Below are positions 12,102-31,609 of a stretch of DNA of 32,079 nt, one piece after another (the stretch's first letter is position 1; each line of letters starts with the position of its first letter). This stretch comes from Candidatus Eiseniibacteriota bacterium (lineage in GTDB: Bacteria; Eisenbacteria; RBG-16-71-46). The stretch is taken from assembly GCA_016223045.1 (NCBI GenBank), contig JACRPT010000114.1:1-32079 (forward strand). Direction: 5' to 3'. Both the position numbers and the translations under genes were made by a program. The notes beneath the pieces are model-generated. The model was not told the DNA's origin, made no database searches, and worked only from the letters and a program-made list of their open reading frames with translations.

Positions 12102-12222
12102 TCGGGCGGAACGCATCCGGGCGACCGTCTCGGCAGGGCGTCCGCTGCCGGATGTCGGGGCGAGACACCCGCGAGCCCTGCGCGCGGCGATGGTCTGTTC
12201 GGACCAGGGAGCGCCCCGGGAC

Positions 12223-12253
12223 CGTCGGGGCCGCGGCGTGCGCGGCCCCGACG
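12223..12253. promoter_or_regulatory. Perfect 13-bp inverted repeat in the divergent hypF/glycosyltransferase spacer
   Basis: The arm CGTCGGGGCCGCG (12223-12235) is repeated exactly in reverse complement at 12241-12253 around a 5-base centre, GCGTG. The genes on both sides point away from it and no T-run follows, so it is not placed to act as a terminator for either. It ends 17 bases before the hypF -10-like hexamer, covering the -35 position, so a protein-binding site for hypF control is the best guess. High GC content makes palindromes commoner, but 13 perfect pairs is still striking. Confidence 0.5.
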
Positions 12254-12270
12254 CACACGCGGCCTTCGAC

Positions 12271-12276
12271 TACACT
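12271..12276 (+). promoter_or_regulatory. Leaderless-type -10 element of hypF
   Basis: TACACT is followed by six bases and then the hypF ATG at 12283, so transcription would begin at or within a base of the start codon. No Shine-Dalgarno sequence precedes that ATG. The same layout (hexamer, six bases, start codon) occurs at ispG in this window. Confidence 0.4.
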
Positions 12277-12282
12277 GGCGCC

Positions 12283-14640
12283 ATGTCCGTTCCCCCTGCG
12301 GTGGCGACGGCCCGGCTGCGGCTCGAGATCCGCGGCGCGGTGCAGGGCGTGGGCTTCCGCCCGTTCTTGTTCCGGCTGGCGGAGGAGCTCGCGCTCGCCG
12401 GCTGGGTCTCGAACGACACGCGCGGCGTGTTCGTCGAGGTCGAGGGCCCGCGCGAAGCGCTCGAGCGGTTCCGCGCGCGGCTCGAAGCCGAGCGCCCGGC
12501 ACACGCCGTGGTGCAGGGGATCGAGGCGGCGTGGCTCCCGCCTGCGGGCTTCCGCGGCTTCGAGATCCGCGAGAGCGACGCGCGGGGCGACCGGCGCGCG
12601 GCGGTGCTGCCCGACCTCGCGACCTGCGAGGACTGCCTGCGCGAGACGCTCGACCCGCGCGACCGCCGCCACCGCTACCCGTTCACCAACTGCACCGGCT
12701 GCGGCCCGCGCTTCACCATCCTGCGCGAACTGCCCTACGACCGGCCCCACACCACGATGCGCGGCTTCGCGCTGTGCGACGCCTGCCGCAGGGAGTACGA
12801 CGACCCGCGCGACCGCCGCTTCCACGCCCAGCCCAACGCCTGCCCCGCGTGCGGGCCGCGCCTCGCGCTGTGGGGACCGGCGGGGGAGACGCTCGCCGAG
12901 GGTGACGGCGCGCTCGAAGCCGCGGCCCGCGCGCTCGCGGAGGGCCGCATCGTGGCCGTCAAGGGCCTGGGTGGATTCCACCTGATGACCGACGCGCGCG
13001 ACGGAGCGGCGGTGGCGCGGCTGCGCGAGAAGAAGCTGCGCCGCGGGAAGCCGTTCGCCCTGATGGTGCGCGACCTCGAAGAGGCGCGCGCGCTGTGCGA
13101 AGTGCCGGACGGAGCGGCGGAGTGGCTGGCACGACCGGAGGCGCCCATCCTGCTGCTGCCGCGGCGGCCCGGGGCGCCGGTCGCGCCCGCCGTGGCGCCG
13201 GGGAACCCCAACCTCGGCGTGATGCTGCCGGCGACGCCGCTCCACCACCTGCTGCTGCGCGCGTGCGGCTTCCCCGTGGTCGCGACCAGCGGGAACCTCG
13301 GCGACGAGCCGATCTGCACGGACGAGCGCGAGGCGCTGCGGCGCCTCGACGGCATCGCCGAGCTGTTCCTGGTGCACGACCGACCGATCGAGCGCCACGT
13401 GGACGACAGCGTGGGCTGGATGCTGGAGGGCCGCATGCGCCTGCTGCGCCGCGCCCGCGGCTTCGCGCCGCTGCCGGTCGTGGCGCCGCGCGAGCTGCCG
13501 GTGATCCTCGCGGTGGGTGCGCACCTCAAGAACACCGTGGCGCTGAGCGTCGGCCGCCAGGTGTTCGTGAGCCAGCACATCGGCGACCTCGAGACCCCGG
13601 AAGCCATGGACGCTTTCGAGCGCGTGATCGCGGACTTCCAGCGGCTCTACCAGGCGCGCCCGGCCGCCATCGCCCACGACCTGCACCCCGACTACCTCTC
13701 GACCCGCTGGGCGCTCGCGGCCGCGCGCGGCACGCGCGGCGCGGCGCCGCCGCGGCTGGTCGCGGTGCAGCACCACCACGCGCACCTGGCGGCGTGCCTG
13801 GCCGAGAACGGCGCCACGGAGCGCGCGCTGGGCGTGACCTGGGACGGCACCGGCTACGGCACCGACGGCACGGTATGGGGCGGCGAGTTCCTGCTGGGCG
13901 ATGCCGCCGGCTTCGCGCGCGTCGCACACCTGAGGCCGTTCCGCCTGCCGGGCGGCGAGGCCGCGGTGCGCGAGCCGGGGCGCGTCGCGCTCTCCCTGCT
14001 GTGGGAGTGCCTCGGCCCGGCTGCGCTGGAGCGCGAGGACCTGCCCGTGGTGGGCGCCTTCGGCCGCAGCGAGCGACGCGTGCTCGGGCAGATGCTCGAG
14101 CGCGGATTGAACTCCCCGCTCACCACCAGCATGGGGCGGCTCTTCGACGGGATCGCGGCGCTGGTCGGGTTCCGCGGGCCGGTCACGTTCGAGGGGGAGG
14201 CGGCGATGGCGCTCGAGTTCGCGGCGGACAGCGCCGAGCGGGGAGTGTATGTTGTCCCCTTCGCCGGGCCGGAGCCCGGGTCCACCGGGACGGCGGGCGG
14301 GGAGCCGGCCGCCCCGACCCTCATGGATTGGCGCCCGCTGGTCGAGGACGTGCTGCGGGATCTGAAGAAGGGGGTCGCGCCGGGGATCATCGCGGCGCGC
14401 TTCCACAACGGGCTGGTCGCGGTCGCGGCGCACCTGGCGCGGACCATCGGGATCGAGCACGTCGCGCTCTCCGGCGGCTGCTTCCAGAACCGGCTGCTGA
14501 CCGGGCGGCTCAAGGTGGCGCTCGAACAGGGGGGACACACGGTGCTGCTGCACCGGCAGGTGCCGGCCAACGACGGCGGCGTGAGCCTGGGACAGGTCAT
14601 GGTGGCGGCCGCGCGGCTCGCCGCGGACGAGGAGAGCTGA
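12283..14640 (+). CDS. hypF: Carbamoyltransferase HypF, hydrogenase maturation
   Basis: Uses carbamoyl phosphate and ATP to make thiocarbamate on HypE, the source of the CN ligands of NiFe hydrogenases; 785 aa, normal length. Domains in order: acylphosphatase with VQGVGFRPF (R26) and WVSND (N44); two zinc-finger units, each C-x2-C-x18-C-x2-C (for example CEDC ... CTGC, then CDAC ... CPAC); a YrdC-like domain with VKGLGGFHLMTDA and RRGKPFALM; and the Kae1-like domain with HHHAHLAACLAENG and ALSGGCFQNRLL. The ATG at 12283 is preferred to the in-frame ATG at 12190 because the acylphosphatase domain starts about ten residues after it. First gene of hypFCDE; its stop is two bases before the hypC start. 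Confidence 0.97.
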   Translation: MSVPPAVATARLRLEIRGAVQGVGFRPFLFRLAEELALAGWVSNDTRGVFVEVEGPREALERFRARLEAERPAHAVVQGIEAAWLPPAGFRGFEIRESDARGDRRAAVLPDLATCEDCLRETLDPRDRRHRYPFTNCTGCGPRFTILRELPYDRPHTTMRGFALCDACRREYDDPRDRRFHAQPNACPACGPRLALWGPAGETLAEGDGALEAAARALAEGRIVAVKGLGGFHLMTDARDGAAVARLREKKLRRGKPFALMVRDLEEARALCEVPDGAAEWLARPEAPILLLPRRPGAPVAPAVAPGNPNLGVMLPATPLHHLLLRACGFPVVATSGNLGDEPICTDEREALRRLDGIAELFLVHDRPIERHVDDSVGWMLEGRMRLLRRARGFAPLPVVAPRELPVILAVGAHLKNTVALSVGRQVFVSQHIGDLETPEAMDAFERVIADFQRLYQARPAAIAHDLHPDYLSTRWALAAARGTRGAAPPRLVAVQHHHAHLAACLAENGATERALGVTWDGTGYGTDGTVWGGEFLLGDAAGFARVAHLRPFRLPGGEAAVREPGRVALSLLWECLGPAALEREDLPVVGAFGRSERRVLGQMLERGLNSPLTTSMGRLFDGIAALVGFRGPVTFEGEAAMALEFAADSAERGVYVVPFAGPEPGSTGTAGGEPAAPTLMDWRPLVEDVLRDLKKGVAPGIIAARFHNGLVAVAAHLARTIGIEHVALSGGCFQNRLLTGRLKVALEQGGHTVLLHRQVPANDGGVSLGQVMVAAARLAADEES

Positions 14641-14913: not shown

Positions 14914-15998
<1,085 letters not shown>

Positions 15999-16002
<4 letters not shown>

Positions 16003-17063
16003 GCGGCGCCGCCGTGGACTTCGCCGGGCTCCAGTGCCCGATCCCGCTCGGCGACTATCCGCAGGTGACGCTCGCGCACGGCGGGGGCGGGCGGCTCACG
16101 CATACCCTGATCGAGCGCATGTTCCTGGCCGCGTTCCGCAACCCCGCGCTCGAGACGCTCCACGACGGGGCGGTGCTCGAGGTGGGGAAGGGGCGCATCG
16201 CCGTCACCACCGACTCGTTCGTGGTGAGCCCGCGTTTCTTCCCGGGCGGCGACATCGGCTCGCTCGCCGTGCACGGCACGGTCAACGACCTGGCCATGTG
16301 CGGCGCGCGGCCCTTCGCGCTGACCGCCGGCTTCGTGCTCGAGGAAGGGCTGCCGATGGACGAGCTGTGGCGGATCGTGCGCTCCATGGCGCGCGCCGCG
16401 GAGGAGGCCGGAGTGGCCATCGTCACCGGCGACACCAAGGTGGTGGACCGCGGCAAGGGCGACGGAGCGTTCATCAACACCACCGGCCTCGGCACCGTGC
16501 CCGACGGGGTGGACGTGTCGCCGCGGCGCGCCTGCCCGGGCGACGTCGTGCTGCTGAGCGGCCGCATCGCCGAGCACGGCGTGGCCGTGATGTCCGTGCG
16601 CGAGGGACTCGGCTTCGAGACCACGATCACCAGCGACTCTGCCGCCCTCCACGGCCTGGTGGCCGGGCTGCTCGACGCCGTCGGGGGCGCCGTCCACGTG
16701 CTGCGCGACCCCACGCGCGGCGGGGTGGCGAGCGCGCTCAACGAGATCGCGGGGAGCGCACGCGCCGGGATCGTGCTGGACGAGGCCGCCATCCCGGTGG
16801 CCGAGGAGGTGCGCGGCGCCTGCGAGCTGCTGGGGCTGGATCCGCTCTACGTCGCGAACGAGGGCAAGTGCCTGGCGATCGTCGAGCCCGCCGCGGCCGG
16901 CGCCGCGCTCGCCGCGCTGCGCGCCCACCCGCTCGGCCGCGAGGCCGTCGCGGTCGGCGAGGTGGTGGCCGGGCATCCCGGCCGGGTCCACCTGCGGAGC
17001 CGCATCGGCGGCACGCGCGTCGTGGACATGCTGAGCGGCGAGCAGCTCCCGCGGATCTGCTGA
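15999..17063 (+). CDS. hypE: Hydrogenase maturation protein HypE
   Basis: PurM-like ATPase that dehydrates the thiocarbamate on its own C-terminal cysteine to thiocyanate, the CN donor; 354 aa. The protein ends exactly in PRIC, so the modified Cys is the last residue, as required. Other hallmarks are [10 protein letters not shown] near the N-terminus, [30 protein letters not shown] and [15 protein letters not shown]. The GTG start overlaps the hypD stop. Immediately after the stop, the last 26 bases before the stop region are repeated once in slightly altered form (see the repeat entry). Confidence 0.97.
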
Positions 17064-20110: not shown

Positions 20111-22540
20111 CTACCGCGCCGAGTCGAGCACCGCCGCGGCCGGCAGCGAGTCGGGCGCCGCGACCGCGCTGCTGTCGCGCGCGGCGAGGCTGTCGGCCGG
20201 CTCGTGGTGCAGCGTGCACGCCGCGCGCGGCGCGGTGCCGGGCAGGAACGGCACGCGCATCACAGGGCAGTCCGGCCGCGCGACGCCGCCGCTCCACGGG
20301 TCGATCCACGCCAGCTCGAGCCCCGCGTCACCCGCGAAGGGCGTGGGCGGAAAGCCCGCGAGCAGGCGGCCCATGATCCCGGCCCACACCGGCAGCGCGG
20401 TCTGCGCGGCCGGGCGGTACAGGCTCGCCGGCGTGTCGTAGCCCACCCACACGCCCGCCGCGACGTCAGGGGTGAAGCCGACGAACCACGCGTCGTCGTA
20501 GTCGTTCGTGGTGCCGGTCTTGCCGCCTACCGGGAAGGTGAACCCGTATCGCGCGCGCAGCGGGTAGGCCACGCCGTAGATCACCACGTCCTCGAGCAGG
20601 CCCGTCATGAGGTCGGCGGTCTCCCCGGGCAGCGCGCGCACCGGCCGCGCCGGCGCGTCGAGCAGGCTTCTTCCCGCGCCGTCCACCACCGCGCGCACCG
20701 GGGTGGGCTCGCGGTGCTGGCCGCGGCCGGGGAACACCGCGTAGGCGCCGGTGAGCGCCAGCAGCGACACCTCGTTGGTGCCGAGCCCGATGCTCGGCAC
20801 CGGCTTGAGCTTCCCCAGCCCGAAGCGCGCGGCGTAGCGCGCCACCACGCCGGCGCCGATCGCCTCGACCAGGTTCGCGGTGGCGACGTTGAGCGACCGG
20901 GCCAGCGCCTTGGCGAGCGTCACCTGCGGGTGGTAGTCGCCCTCGTCGTTGCGCGGCTTCCACACGGTGTCGCCGGCGGCGAACGCGCGGCGCAGGTCGG
21001 GCACCGTCGAGGCCGGGGTGAAGCGCGGCGCGCCGCGCTCGGGATCGAGCGCCGCGGCGTAGACGATGGGCTTGATGGCTGAGCCGGTCTGGCGCTTGGC
21101 CTGCGTGGCGCGGTTGAAGTCGCCGGCCTGGAGCGCGCGCCCGCCGACGATCGCGCGCACCGCGCCGGTCGCGGGCTCGAGCGCCACGAACGCGCCCTGG
21201 AGCGGCTGGCCCCGGCGCCCGCTCCACCGCTCGAGCTGCCCCACCCCGTCCGCGAGCCCGGCCTCGGCCGCGGGCTGCCACGCCAGGTCCATGGTGGTGA
21301 AGATCGCGAGCCCCCAGCGCTCGGCCGCGCGGCGCGGCAGTCGCGCCCCGAGCCAGTCGCGCACGGTGCCGGTGAAGCCCGGGAAGCGCGCGGGCGGGGG
21401 TGGTCCGCGCCGCGCGCGCAGCGGCTCCGTGCGCACCCGCGCCGCGGTAGCGGTGTCGAGCGCGCCGGTCGCGATCATGTCGGCCAGCACCGCGTCGCGC
21501 CGCACCCGCGCCGCGCGCGGGTTGCGGAAGGGCGACCAGGCGTTCGGCGCGGGGATGATGCCGGCCAGCAGCGCGGCCTCGGCCAGGCCCAGCGACTCGG
21601 GCGGCGCGTCGAAGTACCAGCGCGACGCCTCGCCGATGCCCGCGACGCCGCCCGCATCGCTCTGCCCCCAGTAGACGGAGTTCAGGTACATCTCGAGGAT
21701 CTCGTCCTTCGAGAGCAGCAGCTCGAGCCCGACCGCGAGCGCCGCCTCGGACAGCTTGCGACCGAAGGTCCGCTGACGGCCGAGGAACAGCCCGCGCGCG
21801 AGTTGCTGCGTGATGGTGCTCGCGCCCTGGCGCACGCGTCGCGCCTGCACGTTCGCGGCGAGCGCGCGGACGTTGCCCCTGAGGTCGAGCCCGAGGTGGC
21901 TGCGGAAGCGCCGGTCCTCCGCGGCCACCACCGCGTCGCGCACCGCGCGCGGGACGCGCGCGAGCGGCGTCCAGGTGCGCAGCACGCGCTGCGAGTCGGC
22001 GAGCACCGCGATCAGCGCGGGCTCGAGCCGCGGCGGGTGGGCGAGGTCGGGCGGCGCGGCCCCCGGGACGCCGCCCAGCCGCCGCACCGCGGCGAGCCGG
22101 CCGCCCGCGAGCTCGACGCGCACGCGCTCCGGCCCGCCGGCGCCGTCCGGATCCGGCGCCTCGGCGAAGCCGCGCAGCACGATCTCGGCGCCGCGCGGGA
22201 GCCCCGCCCAGGTGCCGGGCTCGCGCGGGGGCCCCGCGACCTCGCGGTAGCCGCGGGCCTCCAGGTGGGCGCGCAGGTATCCGGGCGGGAGCGGGCGCCC
22301 CGGCGAGAGGACCAGGCCGTCCGCGTAGACCCGAGACGGGAAGTTCCACGAGGGCCCCGCGGCGTGGCGCGCGCGCAGAGCGCGCACCTCGAGCGCCAGT
22401 CGCACGAAGCCGGCCAGCGTGGCGAGCAGCAGCACGCCGAGGGCGGCGAGGAGCCTGCGCCGCACGCGGCGCGGGCCGCGTGCGCGGACGACCGGCGCGG
22501 CGGTTCGGACCGGGGGGCAGGCGTCAGGCGGATCGGGCAT
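20111..22540 (-). CDS. Class A penicillin-binding protein, PBP1b-like (bifunctional peptidoglycan synthase)
   Basis: An 809-residue inner-membrane enzyme that polymerises lipid II and cross-links the product. A basic N-terminus and one membrane helix (about 30-50) are followed by a UB2H-like region (WNFPSRVYADGLVL, then LRAHLEARGYREV), which points to the PBP1b type. The GT51 domain has catalytic E208 in AAEDRRF and QGASTITQQLARGLFLGRQR. The transpeptidase domain has nucleophile S487 in TGSAIKP (S-x-x-K), then SLN and KTGTTNDYDDAWFVGF. The C-terminal tail is short and Ala-rich. No clear ribosome-binding site stands before the ATG at 22540. It is a single gene upstream of the hypA operon with a 259-base gap; the KGG gene diverges on the other side. 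Confidence 0.95.
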   Translation of the reverse strand: MPDPPDACPPVRTAAPVVRARGPRRVRRRLLAALGVLLLATLAGFVRLALEVRALRARHAAGPSWNFPSRVYADGLVLSPGRPLPPGYLRAHLEARGYREVAGPPREPGTWAGLPRGAEIVLRGFAEAPDPDGAGGPERVRVELAGGRLAAVRRLGGVPGAAPPDLAHPPRLEPALIAVLADSQRVLRTWTPLARVPRAVRDAVVAAEDRRFRSHLGLDLRGNVRALAANVQARRVRQGASTITQQLARGLFLGRQRTFGRKLSEAALAVGLELLLSKDEILEMYLNSVYWGQSDAGGVAGIGEASRWYFDAPPESLGLAEAALLAGIIPAPNAWSPFRNPRAARVRRDAVLADMIATGALDTATAARVRTEPLRARRGPPPPARFPGFTGTVRDWLGARLPRRAAERWGLAIFTTMDLAWQPAAEAGLADGVGQLERWSGRRGQPLQGAFVALEPATGAVRAIVGGRALQAGDFNRATQAKRQTGSAIKPIVYAAALDPERGAPRFTPASTVPDLRRAFAAGDTVWKPRNDEGDYHPQVTLAKALARSLNVATANLVEAIGAGVVARYAARFGLGKLKPVPSIGLGTNEVSLLALTGAYAVFPGRGQHREPTPVRAVVDGAGRSLLDAPARPVRALPGETADLMTGLLEDVVIYGVAYPLRARYGFTFPVGGKTGTTNDYDDAWFVGFTPDVAAGVWVGYDTPASLYRPAAQTALPVWAGIMGRLLAGFPPTPFAGDAGLELAWIDPWSGGVARPDCPVMRVPFLPGTAPRAACTLHHEPADSLAARDSSAVAAPDSLPAAAVLDSAR

Positions 22541-25627: not shown

Positions 25628-26860
25628 ATGAAGAGTCGGCTTCTGCTTCCCGCAGCGCTCACCGTCGCCATGCTGCTGGCCTGTGCCGCCGCATTCGCGG
25701 CCAGGCCTCCAATCGACTACCCCGAAGGCCCCGGCGGCCCGTTCGGGGACGTCGAGCTGTCGCGCTGCGCCACGCCCGAGCCCACCGTCGCCGAGATGAA
25801 CCGCGTGCAGGCCGCGCTCAAGCGCTACGTGGACGAGCTCGGGGTGCAGGCGGTCGGGGGGCAGATCAAGGTCGCCTTCCACGTGATCTACTCGGGCACC
25901 ACCGGCAACATCCCGCAGTCCCAGATCGACGCCCAGATCGCCGAGCTCAACAAGGCCTACGCGGGCTACTACGGCGGCGTCAACACCGGCTACACGTTCG
26001 TGCTCGCGAGCGTGGACCGCAAGAACAGCAGCTCGTGGTTCAAGATGACGCCGGGCAGCGGCGCCGAGAAGAACGCCAAGAACGCGCTGGCCATCGATCC
26101 CGCGCACCGGCTCAACCTCTACACCTGCAAGCCGGGGCAGAACCTGCTCGGCTGGGCCTACTTCCCCTGGTCGTACGCCGAGAGCAACAAGATGCACGGC
26201 GTCGTATTCCACTACGGCTCGGTGCCGGGCGGCTACCTGTCGCCCTACAACCTGGGCGGCACCGCGGACCACGAGGTCGGCCACTACCTCGGCCTCTATC
26301 ACACGTTCCAGGGCGGCTGCACCGATCCCAACGACTACGTGTCCGACACGCCGCAGGAGGGCACCTCGACCGCGGGCTGCCCGACCAACAAGGACACCTG
26401 CCCGGCGGCGGGGGCCGATCCGGTCCACAACTACATGGACTACTCGGACGACGTCTGCTACACGCAGTTCACAGCCGGCCAGGACGCGCGCATGGACCAG
26501 ATGGTGCCGACGTATCGGCCGAGCCTGCTGAACGCGGCGGTGGCGCAGCAGATCTCCGGCCCCGACGCCGACCCGGCGGGCGTGCCGTCGCTGAAGGGTG
26601 GCGTGGCGTTCCGCGGCGCGTTCCCCAACCCGTTCTCCGGTCAGACCGTGCTGCGCTTCGCGCTGCCGCGCGCGGCGAGCGTGTCGCTCAGGGTCTACAG
26701 CATCACCGGCCAGCTGGTGCGCAATCTGGTGGACGGAGAGCAGGCAGCGGGTGAGCGCACGGTGCTGTTCGAGGCCGGCGACCTCCCGGCGGGGATGTAC
26801 TTCGCGGTGCTGAAGGTCGGCGCCACGCAGGCGAGCCGCAGCGTCATCCTGGTGCGGTAG
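25628..26860 (+). CDS. Secreted M43-family (pappalysin-type) zinc metalloprotease with C-terminal sorting-like domain
   Basis: A 410-residue exported protease. The signal peptide ends about AAFAA. The zinc site HEVGHYLGLYH places H215, E216, H219 and H225 as ligands and base; the later NYMDYSDD is the Met-turn, with surrounding cysteines (CTDPND, CPTNKDTC, DDVCY) as in cytophagalysin-like M43 enzymes. The last 85 residues form a separate beta domain: FPNPFSG, then SVSLRVYSITGQLVRNLVDG and LPAGMYFAVLKV. This pattern is annotated as FlgD-like or T9SS type A sorting domain in FCB-group bacteria. The ATG has GGAGGA five bases upstream. A sigma-54-type promoter precedes it and a strong terminator follows. 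Its substrate is unknown. Confidence 0.92.
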   Translation: MKSRLLLPAALTVAMLLACAAAFAARPPIDYPEGPGGPFGDVELSRCATPEPTVAEMNRVQAALKRYVDELGVQAVGGQIKVAFHVIYSGTTGNIPQSQIDAQIAELNKAYAGYYGGVNTGYTFVLASVDRKNSSSWFKMTPGSGAEKNAKNALAIDPAHRLNLYTCKPGQNLLGWAYFPWSYAESNKMHGVVFHYGSVPGGYLSPYNLGGTADHEVGHYLGLYHTFQGGCTDPNDYVSDTPQEGTSTAGCPTNKDTCPAAGADPVHNYMDYSDDVCYTQFTAGQDARMDQMVPTYRPSLLNAAVAQQISGPDADPAGVPSLKGGVAFRGAFPNPFSGQTVLRFALPRAASVSLRVYSITGQLVRNLVDGEQAAGERTVLFEAGDLPAGMYFAVLKVGATQASRSVILVR

Positions 26861-26917: not shown

Positions 26918-27012
26918 TCGTGCGTGTGGATGAGGAGAAGTGCGGCGACCGCGACGGGCCCGGGACGAGAGGGCCGGTTCGTTTCGCGCACGTGGATGTG
27001 GCAGAGTGCTGC
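26911..27012 (+). repeat. Two diverged copies of a ~36-bp unit downstream of the terminator
   Basis: The stretch 26911-26946 (from GTTCGTCTCGTGCG to AAGTGCGGC) aligns without gaps to 26977-27012 (from GTTCGTTTCGCGCA to GAGTGCTGC) at about 27 of 36 bases. The G/C-rich bases before each copy also resemble one another. The second copy runs up to the start of the next gene. Confidence 0.5.
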
Positions 27013-27013
27013 C

Positions 27014-29032
27014 ATGCCAAGCGTGCCCGACCCGCTGCGCGTCCAGGCCCTGCTGGTCGCGGCGCGCGCGCGCCCGGCCGCGCCGGACGAATGGGAGCGG
27101 CTGCTCGTGGTGGACGTCCCGCGCCAGCGCCTGGTGCTGTGCGACGACGCCGGGCGCGGCCTCGCCGAGTACCCGGTCTCGACCGCGGCGGCGGGGATCG
27201 GTGGGGCGGAGGGCTCGCTCCAGACTCCGCCGGGCTGGCACCGCATCCACGCCCGGATCGGGGCCGGCGCGCCGAGCGGCGCCCGCTTCGTGAGCCGCGC
27301 GCCGACCGGCGAGGTGTGGGACGGCGAGCCGCGCGCGGAGGACCTGATCCTCTCGCGCATCCTGACGCTCGAGGGGCTCGAGGACGGTGTGAACCGCGGG
27401 CCGGGGCGCGATTCACTGGAGCGCTTCATCTACCTCCACGGCACCAACCACGAGGACGCGCTGGGCCGCGCCGCCTCGCACGGCTGCGTGCGGCTCTCGA
27501 ACGCCGACGTCATCGAGCTGTCCGACCGGGTGCGCGAGGGCGACCCGCTGGTGGTGCTCGACCAGGTCCCGCTCATCCCCCTGCTCGCGGGCCGCTTCCA
27601 CTACGCGGGCATCGGCGGCAGCGGGATGAGCGCGCTCGCCCAGTTCCAGGTGATGCGCGGCGGCCGCGCGAGCGGCAGCGACCGCGCCTTCGACCGCGGT
27701 GAGCGTGCCGGGGCGCGCGCGCAGCTCGAGCGACTCTGCATCGGCATCACGCCCCAGGACGGCAGCGGCGTCGCGGGCAGCTGCGCGACGCTGGTGGTCT
27801 CCAGTGCGGTCGAAGACCAGGTGCCCGACGTGGCCGCCGCGCGCGCGCGCGGCGTGCCGGTCGCGCACCGCTCCGAGGTGCTCGCCGATCTCGTGGCGAG
27901 CCACCGCACCGTCGCCGTCACCGGCACCAGCGGCAAGTCCACGGTGGTGGCGATGATCTTCGAGATCCTGCGCGGTGCCGGCCGCGATCCCTCGGTCGTC
28001 ACCGGCGGCGACCTGGTGGTGCTGCAGCGCGAGGGGCTCTGGGGGAACGCCTGGGCCGGCGGCTCCGACCTGCTGGTGGTCGAGGCCGACGAGAGCGACG
28101 GTTCGGTGGTGCGCTACGCGCCCGCCGTCGGCGTGATCCTGAACCTCCAGCGCGACCACCGGGAGATGGACGAGGTGGCCGCGATGTTCGCTGCGTTCCG
28201 CGCGCGCACCCGCGAGACGGCGGTGCTGGGCGAGGGCGGGAACCTCGCCGCGCTCGCCCGGGACGCGCTGGTGTTCGGCTTCGGGCCGCTCGCCGCGGTG
28301 CGCGGCGAGGAGGTGGCGCTCGCGGCCGCGGGCAGCGCCTTCGAGGTGGACGGCGTGCGTTTCATGCTCCCGGCGCCGGGGCGGCACAACATCGAGAACG
28401 CGCTCGCCGCCATCGCCGCCTGCCGGGCGCTGGGCGTGCCGCTGGCCGGCATGGTCGAGCCGCTCGCGCGCTTCCAGGGCGTGGGCCGGCGCTTCCAGCC
28501 GCTGGGCGGGGTGCGCGGCGTCGAGGTCGTGGACGACTTCGCGCACAACCCGGCCAAGCTCGCTGCCGCCATCGCCACCGCGCAGGCGCGTGTCGCCGCG
28601 GGCGTGGCGGCCAGCGCCCCCGGGCCGCCGGGTCCAGACGCCGCGCCGCCCGCCGGGGTGCGGCCGGGCCGCGTGCTCGCGGTCTACCAGCCGCACGGCT
28701 ATGGCCCGACGCGCTTCCTGCGCCGCGACCTGGTCGAGACCTTCGCCGCCGCGCTGGGGCCCGAGGACCGGCTGTGGATGCTCGAGGTGTTCTACGCCGG
28801 CGGCAGCGCGCTGCGCGACTTCTCCGCCGCCGACATCGTCGCCGAGATCGCCGCGCGCGGCGCCCGCGCCGAGTTCGCGCCGTCGCGCGCGTGGCTGGTC
28901 GAGCGCATCGCGGCCGAGGCGTGCGCCGGCGACCTGGTGCTGGTGATGGGCGCGCGCGACCCCTCGCTCACCGGCCTGGCGCGCGACATCCTCGCCGCGC
29001 TCGAGCCTGCGCGCGCGCCGGAGGCCCGCTGA
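27014..29032 (+). CDS. Fusion of a YkuD (L,D-transpeptidase/carboxypeptidase) domain with a MurC/Mpl-type Mur ligase
   Basis: One 672-residue polypeptide with two peptidoglycan enzymes. Residues 20-190 form a YkuD domain: LLVVDVPRQRLVL, catalytic H142 in YLHGTNHED and nucleophile C158 in SHGCVRLSNADV. Residues 195-672 form a complete Mur ligase: YAGIGGSGMSALAQF, P-loop TGTSGKST with K308, VVEADESDGS, LNLQRDHREMD, GRHNIENALAAIAA, FQGVGRRFQPLGG, VVDDFAHNPAKL and VYQPHGYGPTRFLRRDLVE. The motifs are those of MurC and Mpl, with DDFAHNP nearer to Mpl. A Pro/Ala-rich insert (about 530-553) sits in the C-terminal domain. There is no signal peptide, so both domains should be cytoplasmic. The likely job is peptidoglycan recycling: trimming a tetrapeptide, then ligating it to UDP-MurNAc. 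The ATG at 27014 is the first that fits the YkuD domain; no strong ribosome-binding site precedes it. Confidence 0.9.
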   Translation: MPSVPDPLRVQALLVAARARPAAPDEWERLLVVDVPRQRLVLCDDAGRGLAEYPVSTAAAGIGGAEGSLQTPPGWHRIHARIGAGAPSGARFVSRAPTGEVWDGEPRAEDLILSRILTLEGLEDGVNRGPGRDSLERFIYLHGTNHEDALGRAASHGCVRLSNADVIELSDRVREGDPLVVLDQVPLIPLLAGRFHYAGIGGSGMSALAQFQVMRGGRASGSDRAFDRGERAGARAQLERLCIGITPQDGSGVAGSCATLVVSSAVEDQVPDVAAARARGVPVAHRSEVLADLVASHRTVAVTGTSGKSTVVAMIFEILRGAGRDPSVVTGGDLVVLQREGLWGNAWAGGSDLLVVEADESDGSVVRYAPAVGVILNLQRDHREMDEVAAMFAAFRARTRETAVLGEGGNLAALARDALVFGFGPLAAVRGEEVALAAAGSAFEVDGVRFMLPAPGRHNIENALAAIAACRALGVPLAGMVEPLARFQGVGRRFQPLGGVRGVEVVDDFAHNPAKLAAAIATAQARVAAGVAASAPGPPGPDAAPPAGVRPGRVLAVYQPHGYGPTRFLRRDLVETFAAALGPEDRLWMLEVFYAGGSALRDFSAADIVAEIAARGARAEFAPSRAWLVERIAAEACAGDLVLVMGARDPSLTGLARDILAALEPARAPEAR

Positions 29033-29604: not shown

Positions 29605-30858
29605 CTACTCGCCGGCCGCAGCGCCGAAACGTCGCTCGACGTAGGCGTCGAGCAGTTTCGCGAACTCCGCGGCGATCGCCTCGCCCCGGAGCGTCACCGC
29701 GAGCTTGCCGTCCACGTAGACCGGCGCGCGCGGCTCCTCGCCGGTGCCGGGGAGCGAGATGCCGATGTCCGCGTGCTTGCTCTCGCCGGGTCCGTTCACC
29801 ACGCAGCCCATCACCGCGACGCGCAGGTCCTCGACGCCGGGGTGGTGCGCGCGCCAGTGGGCGAGGCGCTGCTGGATGTGCGCGGTCACGTCGGCCGCCA
29901 GCTCCTGGAAGGTCGTGCTGGTGGTGCGCCCGCAGCCCGGGCACGCGGTGACCTGCGGCGCGAAGTGGCGGATCCCCAGCGACTGGAGTACCTGCTGGCA
30001 GATCCGCACCTCCTCGGCCCGGTCTCCGCCCGGCGTGGGGGTGAGGCTCGCGCGGATGGTGTCGCCGATCCCCTCGGCGAGCAGGATCGAGAGCGCCGCG
30101 GTCGAAGCGACGATGCCCTTGGCGCCGAGGCCGGCCTCGGTGAGCCCGAGGTGGAGCGGGTAGTCGCAGGCCGCGGCGAGCGCGCGGTAGATCGCGACCA
30201 GGTCGCGCACCTCGCTCACCTTGGCCGAGAGCACGATCTTCTCGTGCGGCTGGCCGCAGCGCTCCGCCAGCTCGGCCGAGCGCAGCGCGCTCTCGCGCAT
30301 GGCCTCGAGCACCACCGCGTGGTCCTCCAGCGGCTGGGGGCGGCGCGCGTTCTCGTCCATCAGGCGGGTGAGCAGCTCCCGGTCGAGCGAGCCCCAGTTG
30401 ACGCCGATCCGCACCGGCTTGCCGTGCGCGACCGCCACCTCGACCATGCGCCGGAAGTTGTCGTCGTGGAACTCGCCGTAGCCGACGTTGCCGGGGTTGA
30501 TGCGGTACTTGTCGAGTGCGGCGGCGCAGGCGGGGAACTCGCTCAGCAGCTTGTGTCCGTTGTAGTGGAAGTCGCCCACCAGCGGGGCCGCGACGCCTAG
30601 GTCGGCGAGCCGCTCGCGGATCCCGGGCACGGCAGCGGCGGCGGCGCGGGTGTTCACCGTGATCCGCACGATCTCGGAGCCGGCCCCGGCCAGCTCAGCC
30701 GCCTGGCGCGCGGTGGCGGCGGCATCGGCGGTGTCGCTGTTGGTCATGGACTGCACCACAACCGGATGCGCCGCGCCGACGGGGACACCGCCGATCCAGC
30801 AGCTGACGCTGGGGCGGCGGCCGGCGAGGCGGGTGTTCTCGATCCGGACCACGGGCAC
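29605..30858 (-). CDS. ispG: 4-hydroxy-3-methylbut-2-en-1-yl diphosphate synthase IspG (GcpE)
   Basis: Iron-sulfur enzyme of the MEP isoprenoid pathway, converting MEcPP to HMBPP; 417 aa. The TIM-barrel half has [24 protein letters not shown] and DFHYNG, then [10 protein letters not shown]. The [4Fe-4S] ligands are C306 and C309 in [11 protein letters not shown]352 in [11 protein letters not shown] and E359 in the same motif. It is somewhat longer than the 372-residue E. coli enzyme. The start is GTG at 30858 ([10 protein letters not shown]); a second GTG follows two codons later. A promoter with the -10 hexamer six bases before the start suggests a leaderless transcript. Confidence 0.96.
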
Positions 30859-30864
30859 GCGCCG

Positions 30865-30894
30865 AGGATAGCGGCGGCTTCGGAAGGGCGTCAA
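30865..30894 (-). promoter_or_regulatory. ispG promoter, leaderless layout
   Basis: On the minus strand TTGACG (30889-30894) is followed after 18 bases by TATCCT (30865-30870), then six bases, then the ispG GTG. No Shine-Dalgarno sequence is present. Transcription would start at the GTG itself. Confidence 0.55.
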
Positions 30895-30976
30895 GAAGAT
30901 CAGGCTGCCACCCGAGAGAAACGAGTGCCCCGGGCCATTGCCGAGCACATCGGCGTTGGCCACCGTCTCCGACGGG

Positions 30977-31609
30977 CTACCACCCGAACAGGACGCGCGT
31001 GCCGACCGTGAACGCGGAGAAGTGCGGGATGTCCTTATTCTCCGACCGCAGGTGGTGGTAATTCGCGTCGAGGCCGAGCACCATGTTGGAGCACGTCCGG
31101 AAGTCGAATCCGACGCTGGCGTACCAGCCGGGCACAACCGTGATGTTGCTCAGGCCTCGGCCCACGACAATGACAACGCTGTCGTCCCAGTTCGGGTCTG
31201 CGAGGTTGCGATTGAGGCGATACATGCCTGCGCCGACCTGGAGCCAGGGGCCGTGCCGCTCGATCATCGGCGCCACCAGCTTCAGGTGGGCCGTGACCTG
31301 GAATGCGCTGAAGGCCCAGGTCGAGCCGTCGATTGCTTCGTAGCGCGTGCTCCTCAGGTAACGGTCGAACGCGGCCTTGTATTCCGGAGACGCTGGCCAA
31401 TAGTGGTAGACCAAGTCCACGCCGACACCGACGTGCGAGCTTCCCATGTTGTTGAGCGTCACGCCGGCATCGATGCCGAGCTGAGTGTCGCCGATGTCGC
31501 GGGCCGGCACAGGGAAGGCGAGTTGGGGCCCGAACCACGTGCTCTTGGCCTCAGCGCCCGCCGCAATCGCGAGGCACGCGAAGGTCAATGATAGGCTCCT
31601 GAGCCACAT
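30977..31609 (-). CDS. Small outer-membrane beta-barrel protein, function unknown
   Basis: A 210-residue exported protein with a signal peptide ending AAGAEA. The mature part alternates polar and hydrophobic residues in short strands ([73 protein letters not shown]) and ends in [11 protein letters not shown]. The terminal aromatic residue is the usual insertion signal for outer-membrane barrels. The pattern fits an 8-stranded OmpW/OmpA-like barrel. The ATG at 31609 has GGAG eight bases upstream. The 118 bases between its stop and the ispG start hold the ispG promoter. Confidence 0.8.

Follow-up and report, generated by a model that had tools for sequence, protein, structure and literature searches.

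A fused YkuD–Mur ligase as a probable two-step murein-peptide salvage enzyme in Eisenbacteria and other bacteria

Introduction

Tetrapeptide stems are toxic and cannot serve as cross-link donors, as shown for LdcA in Escherichia coli and ElsL in Acinetobacter baumannii. In the known recycling pathway, both ElsL and LdcA are placed before the ligase Mpl. The window analysed here, a stretch of 32,079 nucleotides from a Candidatus Eiseniibacteriota bacterium, carries a gene in which a YkuD domain, the fold to which ElsL belongs, is followed by a Mur ligase in the same reading frame. Is this join genuine, and what would a protein of this composition do? The original prediction, made from this DNA alone, took the protein for a cytoplasmic recycling enzyme that first trims and then ligates the stem peptide. 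Here, we examine the gene, its relatives in other genomes and the recycling genes that accompany them.

Results

The gene lies at positions 27014–29032 of the forward strand and is a single open frame of 672 amino acids plus a stop codon, the translation of which comprises a YkuD domain and then a complete three-domain Mur ligase; all four Pfam domain matches in the protein exceed the curated cut-offs. The ElsL-like YkuD domain (residues 29–181; 27098–27556; PF03734, E = 4.6e-20) bears the catalytic His142 in HGTNH (27437–27439) and the nucleophile Cys158 in SHGC, within SHGCVRL (27485–27487). A linker that varies across the aligned fused homologues (residues 182–194; 27557–27595), corresponding to a 13-residue gap between the Pfam domains, leads to the N-terminal, UDP-MurNAc-binding domain of the ligase (residues 195–297; 27596–27904; PF01225, 1e-13). 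The central ATPase domain (residues 302–470; 27917–28423; PF08245, 8e-12), with Lys308 in the P-loop GTSGKST, and the C-terminal peptide-binding domain (residues 471–672; 28424–29029; PF02875 at residues 551–648, 2e-15) complete the protein. EADESD and GRHN are present in the ligase half, and a signature alignment placed DDFAHNP, QPHGYGPTR and GARDPSL in its C-terminal domain. The original prediction had named most of these catalytic motifs and described a short join between the halves; all of the motifs were located, and the join is indeed short.

His142, Cys158 and Lys308 are invariant in 35 fused proteins, and the 34 homologues are 42–74% identical to the window protein. The AF2 model of the latter has a pLDDT of 90.2 and a pTM of 0.84. 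In the C-terminal domain, the alignment also revealed an insert rich in Pro and Ala (residues 531–552; 28604–28669), which was modelled at low confidence (low pLDDT at residues 532–539); among the nine fused proteins in alignment A1, L006 is the only other one with such an insert.

By eye, no signal-peptide-like hydrophobic stretch was found in the N-terminus of the window protein (MPSVPDPLRVQALLVAARARPAAPDEWERLLVVDV), also when it was viewed against the aligned homologues, in agreement with what had been predicted. A longer in-frame start is possible at a GTG (26924), but we favour the ATG at 27014 on the strength of the homologues and of a promoter-like motif that is conserved. This motif, TGTGGCANNNT (26997–27007, forward strand), lies 6 nt before the ATG; in eight genomes of the same family or order it precedes the start codon by 6–7 nt (by 3 nt in L013), and it is also found before the GTG start of the fusion in Methyloceanibacter (L043). 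As the motif resembles an extended -10 element of leaderless mRNA, a leaderless start is likely.

Directly upstream of the fusion lies a gene for an M43 (pappalysin-type) metallopeptidase with a Por/FlgD-like C-terminal sorting domain (25628–26860, forward strand), and ispG (gcpE; 29605–31137, reverse strand) is convergent with the fusion and with a small ORF after it. Elsewhere in the window are genes for a PBP1B-type bifunctional penicillin-binding protein with a UB2H domain (20111–22540, reverse strand), a HypF carbamoyltransferase (12190–14640, forward strand) and, beyond a gap, a protein of the AIR-synthase type that may be HypE (15732–17063, forward strand); the last two are perhaps part of a hydrogenase maturation region. 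Across phyla, no conserved neighbour genes of the fusion were found.

A scan of named genomes, most of them metagenome-assembled (MAGs), yielded at least 80 loci: the two halves are fused in one ORF in 50, a YkuD ORF lies directly upstream of, and overlaps, the ligase ORF in 17, and the ligase stands alone in 13. Among the matches listed, fused genes occur in the cultured bacteria Geothrix fermentans DSM 14018, Geothrix campi, Methyloceanibacter superfactus and M. marginalis, and in MAGs of Holophagaceae, Syntrophorhabdus, Syntrophus, Nitrospirota and Fibrobacterota. Within the source family and its sister family, most genomes have the fusion or parts of it. Because independent single-ORF fusions were found in 50 named loci from several phyla, we reject the possibility that a frameshift or an assembly join created the window gene. 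In the open-access full-text literature, we found no description of a YkuD–Mur ligase fusion. A 2026 study of recycling in Caulobacter noted that both LdcA and Mpl are missing in many species (PMC13046382).

The source assembly (3.88 Mb, 97.6% complete) has a murC of its own at C36:48933, near hits to MurD, MurE and MurF in a dcw cluster and with ordinary MurC motifs. Besides MurC, MurD, MurE and MurF, the only Mur ligase in the genome is the fusion. The original prediction had called for a check of separate enzymes, and neither a separate mpl, nor an S66 (LdcA-family) protein, nor a second ElsL-like gene was found in the source genome; a VanY/LdcV-type enzyme was found neither there nor in any of the 39 genomes of the class set. 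An AmpG-like permease and an AmpD amidase were likewise not found in the source genome, which makes it probable that the peptide comes in by a different route; free peptides may enter via an oligopeptide importer. AmpG-like genes are present in most of the taxonomic family to which the genome belongs.

The YkuD half matches the NCBIfam ElsL model (NF040925) along its whole length (residues 31–182) with 129.8 bits, below the curated cut-off of 270 bits, and the nearest structure, as judged by AF2 and Foldseek, is Bacillus subtilis YkuD (1y7m). In A. baumannii, ElsL is a YkuD enzyme of the cytoplasm. In vitro it cleaves the tetrapeptide and leaves the pentapeptide uncut; the purified protein is a recycling L,D-carboxypeptidase, ElsL keeps Mpl from re-using tetrapeptides to toxic effect, and its C138, the equivalent of Cys158 in the window protein, is essential (PMC8649774). 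The two share the YkuD fold, the Cys/His active site, the apparent lack of a signal peptide and a proposed role as recycling L,D-carboxypeptidase in place of LdcA, whereas ElsL is a separate short protein and the window domain is fused to a ligase within 672 residues. The published survey of ElsL dropped proteins longer than 200 residues (PMC8649774), and fusions would therefore have been excluded; the window protein falls outside the standalone size of 105–200 residues used there. In three members of fused clade B (L077, L083 and L085), the Arg position of SHGCxR, behind the catalytic Cys, is occupied by Thr, Cys or Glu, which is unusual for YkuD enzymes.

The ligase half is harder to name. 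Its best NCBIfam score is to murC (TIGR01082), with 267.6 bits against a cut-off of 335.1, and it reaches 95.8 bits against mpl (TIGR01081), the cut-off of which is 388.7. MurC also provides the closest solved folds (HiMurC, 1p3d: TM 0.89 over the target, rmsd 2.4). Nevertheless, of the L-Ala-binding residues of HiMurC, only His376 is kept (H561); Gly562 and Pro565 stand in the places of Arg377 and Arg380, respectively. The ligase half further differs from MurC in lying outside the dcw cluster, and in a careful tree (which leaves out L047) the ligase class is set apart from the MurCs of the same genome group at 100/100. With Mpl (3hn7) it shares the UDP-MurNAc ligase fold, the proposed substrate and a DDFAH motif; the MurC sequence DDYGHHP reads DDFAHNP here. 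On the other hand, the Mpl motif (S/T)AFFDKRSK, as defined in PMC3060825, is absent from the aligned ligase half, and GGSGM replaces the G(C/G)TFM of Mpl. The ligase half has its own signature instead, QPHGYGPTR and GARDPSL, and the latter is an end motif that is invariant in the fused alignment and occurs in neither MurC nor Mpl of E. coli. Judged by these sequence features, the ligase half is neither a canonical Mpl nor a MurC. The Mpl-like role given to it in the original prediction is supported, as the trimming and ligation that this role implies are favoured below, with the qualification that by family criteria the ligase does not belong to Mpl and is closer in score to MurC. Fusions of consecutive peptidoglycan enzymes are known in MurC–Ddl (NF011171) and MurE–MurF (NF008896); those proteins join biosynthetic steps, whereas in the window fusion a predicted hydrolase is combined with a predicted salvage ligase.

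We then compared the distribution of the fusion with that of LdcA-type carboxypeptidases. In the source class, S66 (LdcA-family) proteins occur in 0 of 17 genomes with the fusion, in all 7 with a standalone ligase and in 1 of 14 with neither. Among the named genomes listed, they were found in 1/20 with the fusion, 0/17 with the two-gene arrangement and 6/13 with the ligase only. A near-strict exclusion of all S66 proteins by the fusion was broken by a further fused set, in which 10 of 30 genomes have one; the exceptions are in Holophagaceae. However, each of the 11 S66 proteins in the fused genomes carries an RR[ST]FL twin-arginine signal and is therefore probably exported, so that the exclusion is restored for S66 proteins without a signal. 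Among the six S66 proteins in ligase-only named genomes, five lack a signal and the sixth bears a Sec-like one. Altogether, signal-less S66 proteins are present in 0/82 genomes with a YkuD-linked ligase versus 11/19 with the ligase alone (Fisher's test, P = 4.8e-10), a test that ignores the relatedness of the species and uses a split by signal chosen once the exceptions had been seen. Phylogenetically independent pairs ran in the predicted direction with none against expectation, and are too few for significance.

The ligase-only genomes are not uniform. L108 (Krumholzibacteria), which has the ligase alone and no LdcA, has an unlinked ElsL-like gene, and the sole S66 protein of L093 bears a signal. 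Six others of the 19 ligase-only genomes yielded no S66 protein and no full ElsL-like domain. From this distribution, a ligase without a YkuD partner often has another cytoplasmic-type carboxypeptidase available, and no tested genome has both. As separate observations, Elusimicrobia-type L094, L104, L109, L111 and L113 have the ligase with no LdcA or full ElsL-like domain found, and Holophagaceae and their near relatives (L150, L154–L163) have an S66 peptidase with a twin-arginine signal, a probably exported relative of LdcA.

The careful tree recovered two fused clades, one of Eisenbacteria, Holophagaceae and Methyloceanibacter (support 100/98, with one ligase-only Armatimonadetes row inside) and the other of Syntrophorhabdus, Syntrophus, Nitrospirota and Fibrobacterota (100/100). 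Two-gene lineages stand between them, and a single clade of all fused rows was rejected (AU test, P = 0.015). On this phylogeny, the fusion arose twice. In 14 of the 17 listed two-gene loci, a TTG located 13 nt within the 3' end of the YkuD gene appears to be the start codon of the ligase, and a Shine-Dalgarno sequence (typically GAAGGRGATCCCGTTGTCATC), embedded in YkuD codons, lies ~12 nt upstream of it. Both elements are kept at the DNA level across phyla (L090, L091, L092, L095–L099, L102, L103, L105, L107, L110 and L112). As the genes overlap and the ligase frame is open upstream, a one-base indel could fuse them. Programmed +1 frameshifting at these junctions was considered, since the ligase is read in the +1 frame and a Shine-Dalgarno sequence lies close by; we judged it unlikely because that sequence sits at initiation distance from the conserved TTG and about 17 nt from the stop codon.

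In the trees, the Methyloceanibacter fusions nest within the Eisenbacteria group. This placement and the TGTGGCANNNT motif shared by L043 suggest horizontal transfer of the fusion to Methyloceanibacter, and the motif may have travelled with the gene. Within the fused clade, L011 and L017 (Eisenbacteria, genus g6) have the halves in separate overlapping ORFs, probably as a result of a secondary split.

Discussion

The fusion is quite probably a cytoplasmic bifunctional enzyme of murein-peptide salvage, which trims the tetrapeptide and ligates the tripeptide. The ElsL-like YkuD domain (Cys158/His142) would act as an L,D-carboxypeptidase and strip the terminal D-Ala from recycled L-Ala-gamma-D-Glu-mDap-D-Ala; the MurC-like ligase, using ATP, would then, like Mpl, attach the tripeptide to UDP-MurNAc; and the resulting UDP-MurNAc-tripeptide would pass to MurF, which would complete the pentapeptide. 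We propose that, with both activities in one chain, trimming is tied to ligation and the tetrapeptide is not re-used. It is from sequence comparison that we infer both activities, the order of the reactions and any coupling between them. On the comparative evidence, trimming followed by ligation is thus the best-supported reading, as first proposed; of the observations that the original prediction had named as counting against it, neither a separate mpl or ldcA, nor a sign of export, nor an assembly join was found. The label of a one-protein recycling enzyme, however, is too broad, as just these two steps of recycling are covered.

The YkuD half might instead edit the ligase product, the tetra- or tripeptide being ligated first and UDP-MurNAc-tetrapeptide being trimmed afterwards as a form of proofreading. 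The same parts and comparative data fit this order, but ElsL and LdcA are placed before Mpl in the known pathway, and we consider it improbable. In its favour, Mpl accepts tetra- and pentapeptides (PMC3060825), and ElsL also cleaved disaccharide-linked tetrapeptide, so that a sugar-linked substrate is acceptable to such an enzyme (PMC8649774).

Alternatively, the YkuD domain could act as an L,D-transpeptidase and exchange the terminal D-Ala of cytoplasmic precursors for another amino acid, given that the YkuD fold is known mostly from transpeptidases. We regard this as very unlikely: the best family match is the carboxypeptidase ElsL, the domain takes the place of LdcA in the distribution among genomes, and clade B does not keep the Arg after the catalytic Cys. 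Least credible of all is a second MurC that adds L-Ala while the YkuD domain modifies other peptides, since the best family score and the closest structures, which point to MurC, are outweighed by a score below the murC cut-off and the loss of both L-Ala-binding arginines; these losses, the separate dcw murC with its normal motif and the distinct, fully supported ligase clade also led us to reject the replacement of MurC, an alternative in the original prediction, as the main reading.

Going back to the salvage enzyme that trims before it ligates, a more far-reaching version can be offered tentatively, although we would rather bet against it as a whole. The fusion might be a quality gate that hands tetrapeptide, or UDP-MurNAc-tetrapeptide, between its two sites and lets only tripeptide proceed to lipid II; this state might have been reached at least twice from overlapping, translationally coupled genes, and the ligase might represent a third, unnamed class of UDP-MurNAc peptide ligases through which the recycling loop is closed in phyla that supposedly lack Mpl and LdcA.

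The fusion protein is real and widespread, most likely bifunctional and, as far as we searched, previously undescribed, although built from known activities. As far as we found, the balance of these two activities has so far been studied with separate enzymes only. In Geothrix and Methyloceanibacter, they appear to be physically joined in cultured bacteria, and their coupling is therefore directly testable. Our results also suggest that tripeptide recycling extends to phyla in which LdcA and canonical Mpl are looked for without success, as this class of ligase resembles MurC in its scores and long proteins were left out of the published survey of ElsL.
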